Origin: Thermosipho melanesiensis BI429
Lineage (GTDB): Bacteria > Thermotogota > Thermotogae > Thermotogales > Fervidobacteriaceae
Length of the DNA: 64,000 bases
Reading direction: 5' to 3'
Assembly: GCF_000016905.1 (NCBI RefSeq)
Contig: NC_009616.1
Span: 310,001 to 374,000 of the forward strand
The translations under genes were made by a program, and so were the position numbers. The notes beneath the pieces are model-generated. The model was not told where the DNA came from. It searched no databases and was given only the letters and a program-made list of their open reading frames with translations. Shown one piece after another: positions 20,898 through 61,650 of this stretch. Each line of letters begins with the position of its first letter. Position 1 is the first letter of the stretch.

Positions 20898-20969
20898 ATA
20901 TATTAATCCTCCGCAAATTGTGGACTTACCCCCGAAAGTAAAACAGATAAAAAAATAACTATACACATT

Positions 20970-21790
20970 TCAAACAGCATGGTTTCGGTATTCCACCGGA
21001 GCCATGTTTTTTAATCTTGCTTGGTATCTTTCTTCATTGTAGAATCGTATATATTCTTCTATTAGCTTTTTGTATTCTTCTTTTGTTTTTTCCCCATTTA
21101 TTCTTACTACTTCTTCTTTAAGATGACTGAAAAAACTTTCTGCTGGTCCATTGTCTTGTGGTACACCTTTTCTTGACATGCTTTGGATTATTCCTTTTTC
21201 TTTTAACATCTTTGCTGTCAACATATGTGTGTATTAAAATCCTCTATCTGTATGTAATATACCTCCTTTTCTATATTTCCCACTTTTTAACCATCTCTTT
21301 ATTGTATTATCTACTAGTTACAGATTATTATTTTCACCTATTGAATATTCTATTATTTCATTATTATACAAATCCTGAATTATTATCAAATACAATTTTC
21401 CATCAATTGTTTTTATTTGTGTTATATCACTTACAAACTTTTCAAACGGTCTTTTGCTTTTGAAGTTTCTTTTGAGTTTGTTATCTGCTATATATTGTGC
21501 TTGTTAATTTGCGTATGTGATTCTTTTTTCTTATTCTTGCATACAGCCCCATCTCGATATACTTTCTTGTGATTTATTTTCCTTCCTTTCCTATTTAATA
21601 CCATTGTTATTCTACTATATCCGTATATCCCTTTGCATTTGAAGTATATATCTTTGATTTCTTCTTTAAGTTATCTTTATCTTTTCGTTTCATTGCTCGG
21701 TAATACGTACTCTTTGAAATACCTGATATCTTACACAGTAATTCTAAACCAAATCTTTCTTTCAATTCATTCATTACTTCAATTTTTTTA
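20970..21790 (-). pseudogene. IS150-type transposase orfB, inactivated
   Basis: Remains of the DDE integrase-core transposase. Minus-strand fragments in order are ELLCKISGISKSTYYRAMKR, then CKGIYGYSRITMVLNRKGRK, SDITQIKTIDGKLYLIII (first catalytic Asp), LHTDRGF (second Asp) and GVPQDNGPAESFFSHLKEE (catalytic Glu). These pieces sit in different frames, so there are at least two frameshifts. In addition there are two in-frame TAA codons where homologues usually have Gln (after NNNL and after DRGF). The last 84 residues are open but have no start of their own. The element therefore cannot move by itself. Confidence 0.85.
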
Positions 21791-22076
21791 CTATTTCCTT
21801 CCTCAAGAATTTTTTCATCAAAAGCTTTAAATAAGCATTTTCAGCTCGTAATCTTTCCATCTCTTCTTCAAAAGATTCTTTCTTTGGTTTACCTCTTTTA
21901 CATTCTGCTTCACCATACAAAAGATAATTCTTAATCCAAAGACGAACTCTATCTGGCGAAATACCCAAAAGAGAAGCAATAGTCTTCTTAGGAAGATTTT
22001 CTTCAATGAAAAGTTTAACAACCTGATATTTTAGCTCAGAAGGATACTTTTTGAATTTTTGCCCTTTCTTCGTCAA
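21774..22076 (-). CDS. IS150-type transposase orfA (helix-turn-helix protein)
   Basis: DNA-binding first protein of an IS3-family element, 100 residues. A helix-turn-helix lies at about residues 20-60 (KKTIASLLGISPDRVRLWIK), then a KRGKPKKES linker and a leucine-zipper-like helix (EEMERLRAENAYLKLLMKK). The start is TTG at 22076 with GGGGGTG 7 bases before it; that site is one arm of a hairpin. It is intact, unlike orfB, and could still bind the element ends. Confidence 0.85.
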   Translation of the reverse strand: MTKKGQKFKKYPSELKYQVVKLFIEENLPKKTIASLLGISPDRVRLWIKNYLLYGEAECKRGKPKKESFEEEMERLRAENAYLKLLMKKFLRKEIVKKLK

Positions 22077-22080
22077 TGAA

Positions 22081-22119
22081 AAACACCCCCAAAAGATTTT
22101 ATCACTTCCGGGGGTGTTT
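22081..22119 (-). promoter_or_regulatory. IS hairpin controlling transposase translation, with internal promoter
   Basis: AAACACCCCC and GGGGGTGTTT form a perfect 10-bp stem around a 19-base loop. On the minus strand the second arm is the orfA ribosome-binding site. The loop holds TGATAAAAT (22104-22096), an extended -10, so transcripts from that promoter would begin after the first arm. Read-through transcripts would contain both arms and hide the site. Confidence 0.6.
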
Positions 22120-22170
22120 TTTATTTCGTCCCTTTCCTTGGGTTCAGTGCAATTGCGGAGGATCTTTTTT

Positions 22171-22197
22171 TTTAGTTTTTTCATATTTTTCCGATAA
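22171..22197 (+). promoter_or_regulatory. Sigma-28 (FliA) type promoter of flgMNKL
   Basis: TTTAGTTT, 11 bases, then TCCGATAA, against the known sigma-28 consensus TAAAGTTT-N11-GCCGATAA (13 of 16 positions match). It is 20 bases upstream of flgM, and the -35 lies in the T-tract of the old terminator. Confidence 0.7.
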
Positions 22198-22216: not shown

Positions 22217-22468
22217 ATGGATATAAAAAAAATAGGTGGATATGGATACATTCAAGGAATTAACAAGAAACATATAGAAAAAATAAATAGGAAGGATTTT
22301 AAAGCTTCTGACTTTTCCTCTTCTTTGGAAATAAAAAAGTTACTAAAAGATGCCAAGGAAATTCCCGAAGTAAGGCAAGAATTAGTTGATAAACTAAAAG
22401 ACGCTATTAAAAATGGCACATTTAAGGTTGACCCAGAAAAAATTGCAAAATCCATATTAGGAGGATAA
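22217..22468 (+). CDS. flgM: Anti-sigma-28 factor FlgM
   Basis: Negative regulator that holds sigma-28 until the flagellar hook is complete and FlgM is exported. The 83-residue protein has the FlgM C-terminal half: RQELVDKLKDAIKNGTFKVD followed by PEKIAKSIL. ATG at 22217 has GGGAGG upstream. It leads the flgM-flgN-flgK-flgL operon and lies behind a sigma-28-like promoter, the classical feedback layout. Confidence 0.88.
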   Translation: MDIKKIGGYGYIQGINKKHIEKINRKDFKASDFSSSLEIKKLLKDAKEIPEVRQELVDKLKDAIKNGTFKVDPEKIAKSILGG

Positions 22469-61226: not shown

Positions 61227-61287
61227 TATTATCATTAATAATATTCTAACTCTCAAAGAAGAAATTAAATTTTTAACCTTTCTTCTT

Positions 61288-61650
61288 CTATATTCGTATA
61301 TCCTTTTGCATTTGAAGTATATATCTTTGTTTTCTTCTTTAAGTTATCTTTATCTTTTCGTTTCATTGCTCGGTAATACGTACTCTTTGAAATACCTGAT
61401 ATCTTACACAGTAATTCTAAACTAAATCTTTCTTTCAATTCATTTATTACTTCAATTTTTTTACTATTTCCTTCCTCTTCAGCTCGTAATCTTTCCATCT
61501 CTTCTTCAAAAGATTCTTTCTTTGGTTTACCTCTTTTACATTCTGCTTCACCATACAAAAGATAATTCTTAATCCAAAGACGAACTCTATCTGGCGAAAT
61601 ACCCAAAAGAGAACCAATAGTTTTCTTAGAAAGATTTTCTTCAATGAAAA
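61288..61650 (-). pseudogene. Remnant of a second IS150-type element
   Basis: Minus-strand similarity to the IS at 20.9-22.2 kb: the orfA part KKTIGSLLGISPDRVRLWIK through RGKPKKESFEEEMERLRAE, then a deletion of about 36 bases that removes the end of orfA, then the orfB start ERFSLELLCKISGISKSTYY. Both IS ends, the orfA start and most of orfB are missing. The small open frame spanning it is an accident of the deletion. Confidence 0.85.

Follow-up and report, generated by a model that had tools for sequence, protein, structure and literature searches.

An IS150-branch insertion sequence in the loop of an intrinsic terminator of Thermosipho melanesiensis, and the recurrence of this type of target among its relatives

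The DNA analysed here (the window) is a stretch of 64,000 nucleotides from Thermosipho melanesiensis BI429, positions 310001-374000 of a single 1,915,238-bp contig. It contains an intrinsic terminator, with a chemoreceptor gene (MCPsignal, dCache and HAMP domains) on one side and flgM-flgN-flgK on the other, that is interrupted by an insertion sequence (IS). The IS (20921-22151, 1231 bp) and the ATTG repeat on each side of it were read directly from the sequence. The features, in window coordinates, are:

20906..20914, + strand: 5' arm of the split intrinsic terminator, ATCCTCCGC, 3' of the chemoreceptor stop codon (from the sequence, the rejoined stem and intact orthologous terminators in relatives G003, G001 and G002)
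20917..20920, + strand: left copy of the target-site duplication ATTG, partly terminator loop (sequence, rejoining)
20921..22151, - strand (transposase strand): IS3-family, IS150-branch insertion sequence, 1231 bp (identical copy in a different target; Pfam HTH_Tnp_1 and rve_2/rve_3)
20921..20934, + strand: terminal inverted repeat at the orfB end, TGGACTTACCCCCG, common to copies in many genomes
20970..21790, - strand: remnant of orfB (DDE transposase) with several stops and frameshifts, outer limits approximate (translations; intact homologue in G017)
20976..21013, + strand: terminator-like hairpin in the 3' end of orfB, GCATGGTTTCGG...CCGGAGCCATG plus T-tract, reading inward from the chemoreceptor side
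21774..22076, - strand: orfA (HTH protein), about 100 aa, with a TTG start conserved in copies (Pfam HTH_Tnp_1, 1.5e-8)
22084..22122, no single strand: orfA-end hairpin, CACCCCC/GGGGGTG, with a T-tract on each strand, conserved in 12 copies with one compensatory pair
22096..22104, - strand: TGATAAAAT, extended -10-like element in the loop of the orfA-end hairpin, inferred transposase promoter (TG[AG]TA[AC]AAT in all 12 copies)
22140..22151, - strand: terminal inverted repeat on the orfA side, TGCACTGAACCC when read inward (comparison of copies)
22152..22155, + strand: right copy of the target-site duplication ATTG (sequence, rejoining)
22155..22173, + strand: 3' arm GCGGAGGAT (22155-22163) and T-tract (22165-22173) of the split terminator
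22171..22197, + strand: sigma-28-like promoter of flgM, TTTAGTTT-N11-TCCGATAA, uninterrupted and abutting the terminator T-tract; promoter identity inferred
22217..22468, + strand: flgM, first gene of the downstream flagellar operon (Pfam FlgM, 5e-14)

Removal of the IS and one ATTG gives ATCCTCCGCAAATTGCGGAGGATCTTTTTTTTT, in which ATCCTCCGC, the bases AAATT and GCGGAGGAT are followed by the T-tract and form a 10-pair stem (MFE -16.8 kcal/mol). An equally good centred hairpin is found at just 0.18% of random window positions, and at 0.02% if an A/T tract is also required; the hairpin criterion is less stringent in non-coding DNA, with 4.6% of positions attaining an MFE of -12 with 8 pairs. The initial annotation, made from the sequence alone, had proposed an ATTG-flanked IS exactly in the loop of a terminator between the chemoreceptor and the flagellar operon, and the insertion, the joined hairpin and its placement between these genes are confirmed to the base. 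Its claim that the insertion also fixes the borders of the element stands for the ends (TGGACTTACCCC...GGGTTCAGTGCA) and the ATTG repeats, which are read directly, with a small doubt over the A at 22151, which may belong to the target repeat (AATTG) and not to the IS. Comparison with an uninterrupted locus, which had been suggested as a check, reveals the joined hairpin in three relatives. Here the empty orthologous interval is an intact terminator at the matching place (AAATCCTCCGCACAATGCGGAGGATTTTT in G003, CCCTCCACAAACGTGGAGGG in G001 and CCCTCCACTTTTGTGGAGGG in G002, each followed by a T-tract). The sigma-28-like flgM promoter is located downstream of the IS and was left intact, and TCCGATAA is conserved 5' of flgM in the same three genomes.

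The element has the features expected of the IS3 family: orfA has an HTH_Tnp_1 domain and orfB rve_2/rve_3 (Pfam), the ends are of the TG...CA type (TGGACTTACCCC / TGCACTGAACCC), and the duplications ATTG and TTA fall within the expected 3-5 bp. Among the named transposases compared, that of IS150 is nearest. An orfB tree places Escherichia coli IS150 among terminator-targeting elements, and the deep forks near the clade of the window element are weakly supported. IS2 and IS3 are on very long branches in this tree, and IS3 is drawn near the Thermotogota rows, probably due to long-branch effects. Domains and ends thus place the element in the IS3 family, and its designation as an IS150-type element is tentative, with IS150 falling among the relatives in a tree with weakly supported deep forks; the best explanation is that the window holds an IS3-family element of the IS150 branch, present as a recent copy. 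In intact copies (in G017) orfB overlaps orfA in another frame. Because orfB is broken in the window, this copy can no longer mobilise itself.

A second copy, 100% identical to the window copy (genome position 330921), was identified at genome 1881337-1882567. Its flanks (AAAAAACTTCCATTA / IS / TTATTGGAAGGGTTTTTT) rejoin into a terminator with a 3-bp duplication (TTA), and the same interval in G002 is an ordinary intact terminator. The target is thus the hairpin rather than ATTG, and of the two preferences suggested originally, hairpin loops or an ATTG core, only the first is upheld, as other copies lie in unrelated stems. A third, decayed copy (1259784-1260514) is also within a palindrome, so that insertion in a terminator loop holds for the genome's own copies at 330921 and 1881337 and probably for that at 1259784. 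The question of whether other copies also lie in terminator hairpins is therefore answered positively: copies with the same ends occupy other terminators, including the identical copy. The two identical copies (window 20921-22151 and L001) carry the same broken orfB, which implies that the last move occurred after the damage, either in trans or by copying between sites. An intact orfB was not seen anywhere in this genome. An internal part of the same IS, 89% identical, also lies at 61280-61650 of the window, 3' of a tRNA gene and its terminator.

Across genomes, elements sharing these ends are found largely in the same family, and a few belong to other groups. Rejoining the flanks gives a centred hairpin for eight of the 10 contiguous Thermotogota copies, compared to 4.6-8.6% of non-ORF positions, depending on the cutoff; the two that fail the stem criterion (L139 and L148) are decayed. 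In fragmented assemblies the IS ends fall at contig borders, and those copies are not part of the 10, but their flanks show the same A-tract and C-rich arm. Some pairs of such flanks can be matched by duplication and arm (e.g., CAGCCTCTCCAATTG with CAGCCTCTCCAAT in G012); as this matching is partly circular, it was left out of the statistics. In G012, we also identified copies inserted into the hairpin loop of other copies of the same IS (L234:35 and 99, L238:511 and 558, L155:1136). At L137:862-866 (G002 C7), the two ends of this IS, one from the orfB side and one from the orfA side, are separated by only 3-4 bp, resembling the circle junction of IS3-family transposition intermediates.

The same siting recurs in other phyla. 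We sampled eight Weeksellaceae genomes with 3-8 near-identical copies each, for which the ends were obtained by aligning the copies (52 insertions). Rejoining yields a centred hairpin (at least 7 pairs, MFE of -9 or below) for 46 of the 52, compared to 5.8% of 2080 random flank positions. A/T tracts alone suffice to fold swapped flanks (72% at the loosest cutoff), and we therefore adopted a test based on a perfect centred stem with at least 3 GC pairs, which is met by 46/52 insertions versus 74/308 swapped flanks; six copies fail the stem criterion. In a broad sample, mostly Bacillota, ends were called solely from inverted and direct repeats. Automatic end-finding is error-prone in distant elements, so only copies with a duplication and canonical ends were counted. 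A hairpin was found for 31 of 40 such confidently bounded copies and not for the remaining nine, and ends could not be placed confidently for 42 of 144 loci; in non-ORF DNA, 5-9% of random positions meet the loose criterion. Plasmid relatives (six sampled) lie in clear terminators with 3-4 bp duplications in Streptococcus equi, Fusobacterium animalis and Enterococcus faecium, and in a probable terminator in Priestia megaterium. A Klebsiella relative of IS150 (L442) and one from Geobacillus (L444) have unresolved ends and were counted neither way.

Terminator targeting is thus strongly supported, whereas its recognition by the transposase is an inference. We predict, with a probability of roughly 0.8, that the transposase selects intrinsic terminators and that the element resupplies termination near both of its ends. 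The other copies lie in unrelated stems, nearly always in the loop and usually with flanking A/T tracts. When both flanks are read towards the IS, A is found at -20 to -13 and a C-rich segment at -11 to -6, ahead of an A/T-rich loop, in Weeksellaceae and Thermotogota alike; in a two-sided logo, A reaches 70-88% at -17 to -14, and -11 to -6 is C-rich, in both clades. This signature on both flanks indicates that the targets tend to be two-sided terminators. The transposase most likely recognises either this two-sided dyad, made up of an A-tract, a C-rich arm, a short loop, a G-rich arm and a T-tract, or the cruciform that the dyad can extrude, and the IS ends would be joined across the loop with a 3-4 bp stagger. 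Since terminators lie between genes, such an insertion would be nearly harmless.

It remains possible, although we lean slightly against it, that the transposase reads only base composition, an A-tract followed by a C-rich segment in a symmetric duplex dyad, without an extruded hairpin. This would account for a signature that is present on both sides and common to targets of unrelated sequence. Of 14 background terminators found in the window, only three have a 5' A-tract and five a C-rich 5' arm, so the targeted ones look like a subset; with only 14 for comparison, this merely hints that the IS picks a subset of terminators. The arms complement their own partners far more often than do flanks swapped within the same genome (the 46/52 versus 74/308 above), which counts against composition alone, although any terminator would show this. 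Reading of composition is not excluded, and would be a sub-mechanism of terminator selection by the transposase.

The second part of the proposal, resupply of termination, depends on hairpins within the element. The orfB-end hairpin has 14 pairs and is kept in 12 of 12 aligned copies, with 97.6% of cells paired; four pairs are changed on both sides, and none of 500 shuffles scored as high on that measure. As this hairpin sits in coding sequence, protein conservation may explain part of the pairing. At the orfA end, GGGGGTG, the second arm on the minus strand, is likely the ribosome-binding site of orfA. This hairpin would cover that site in transcripts entering from outside, and transcripts started in its loop would leave the site uncovered; both promoter and ribosome-binding-site control are inferred. 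Scanning for sigma-70 promoters gave no convincing match at the position proposed for the transposase promoter, and the -10 assignment thus rests on conservation. With a terminator-like hairpin close to each end, the IS probably halts transcription again shortly after it enters the element. The basis for this is conservation and covariation only, and IS-borne termination is plausible but has not been demonstrated; we are not aware of any assay of termination or transposition for the Thermotogota element.

These hairpins could instead be by-products of coding and regulatory sequence that resupply nothing. We consider this unlikely, although a conserved M-x-P-x-E-Y-R motif is encoded by the orfB-end hairpin and the orfA-end hairpin likely hides a ribosome-binding site. 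By-products are not easily reconciled with pairing that persists through changes on both sides and, in G014, in the presence of a loop insertion. In addition, inward-reading terminator-like hairpins occupy the corresponding places in most Weeksellaceae elements; of the eight examined, five have them at both ends and three at one end. Also relevant is a site 3' of hutU, where G003 (L450) has a decayed IS end with the hairpin GCACCCCC...GGGGGTGC and a T-tract, standing where G002 (L448) has an ordinary terminator; here an IS hairpin may have been taken over as the host terminator.

Much less probable is that insertion is broad and that copies merely persist in harmless places such as terminators. 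Terminators are indeed non-coding, and old copies are hard to place. However, about 14% of the window lies outside ORFs of at least 100 aa, yet most copies are within a few bases of a hairpin axis; identical, recent copies show terminator siting in many genomes, and the hairpin loops of existing copies have themselves received insertions. Sequence-specific insertion at ATTG, which recurs in one G012 copy pair, is ruled out by the varied duplications (TTA in the identical copy, and TAGG, TTTC, GAT, TTTA, AAA and GTC in others).

The nearest precedents to terminator selection by the transposase are IS1397/ISKpn1 and IS1272. IS1397 and ISKpn1 are IS3-family elements that target REP palindromes (PMC1525189; Wilde et al. 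2003 cited there), and the transposase is held responsible for target choice. Their target is one repeated family, whereas the targets here are unrelated intrinsic terminators with T-tracts; carriage of terminators by IS1397/ISKpn1 is not reported in the text consulted (PMC1525189). IS1272/TnSha1, of the IS1182 family, inserts into stem-loops that share no set sequence and include several confirmed terminators (PMC4923244). Its transposase belongs to a different family, and it inserts bluntly into the stem, deleting part of the hairpin and producing no duplication (PMC4923244), whereas the elements described here enter the loop, leave the arms intact and generate 3-4 bp duplications. IS1447, an IS3-family element of Firmicutes first annotated as belonging to the IS150 subgroup, is the subject of a paper on transcriptional slippage, in the text of which we did not find terminator targeting (PMC6211511). 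No published report of terminator-loop targeting by the IS150 branch was found, but ISfinder and most subscription journals were not covered and the behaviour may have been described before.

The IS3 family is one of the most widespread of all IS families, and little target preference is ascribed to most of its members. Two aspects were beyond the reach of the initial annotation: the preference spans a whole IS3-family branch, and the element bears its own terminator-like hairpins. We are evenly divided on the full generalisation, that terminators are the natural target of a phylum-spanning branch including E. coli IS150 and that many members carry terminators at both ends as replacement. If true, such an element would behave as an almost neutral parasite, spreading terminators and sometimes donating them. 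A large terminator-homing branch would account for the sites at which these elements accumulate and for the small amount of damage they cause. Whether a duplex dyad, an extruded cruciform or a nascent RNA hairpin is recognised would become a testable question, and rejoined terminators could be used to annotate IS ends to the base.

For E. coli IS150, most of 16 sampled copies are at hok loci, in the terminator of Sok RNA and usually off the loop centre (L426-L441); one is inside rbsR. The hairpin at these sites we take to be the Sok terminator, based on the sequence and on the known anatomy of hok/sok. IS150 resembles the Thermosipho element in the siting of most copies and in its grouping with terminator-targeting elements in the orfB tree. 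It differs in that the loci are mostly paralogous hok/sok copies entered off the loop centre, from which a sequence-specific preference cannot be separated, and many copies share one site and so are not independent. Internal terminators were not found in E. coli IS150 by a hairpin scan. A laboratory evolution study reported repeated IS150 insertions beside hok/sok and ldr genes and interpreted them as toxin-antitoxin inactivation (PMC5419217). Target preference is a possible alternative reading of those insertions. If terminators are indeed the natural target, the repeated hok/sok insertions would reflect target choice and not selection against toxins, and IS150 hot spots in evolution experiments with E. 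coli could be interpreted differently.

A related subgroup (L339, L340 and L341) apparently has a different target, the 3' ends of tRNA genes (flank TTCGA...ACCA).
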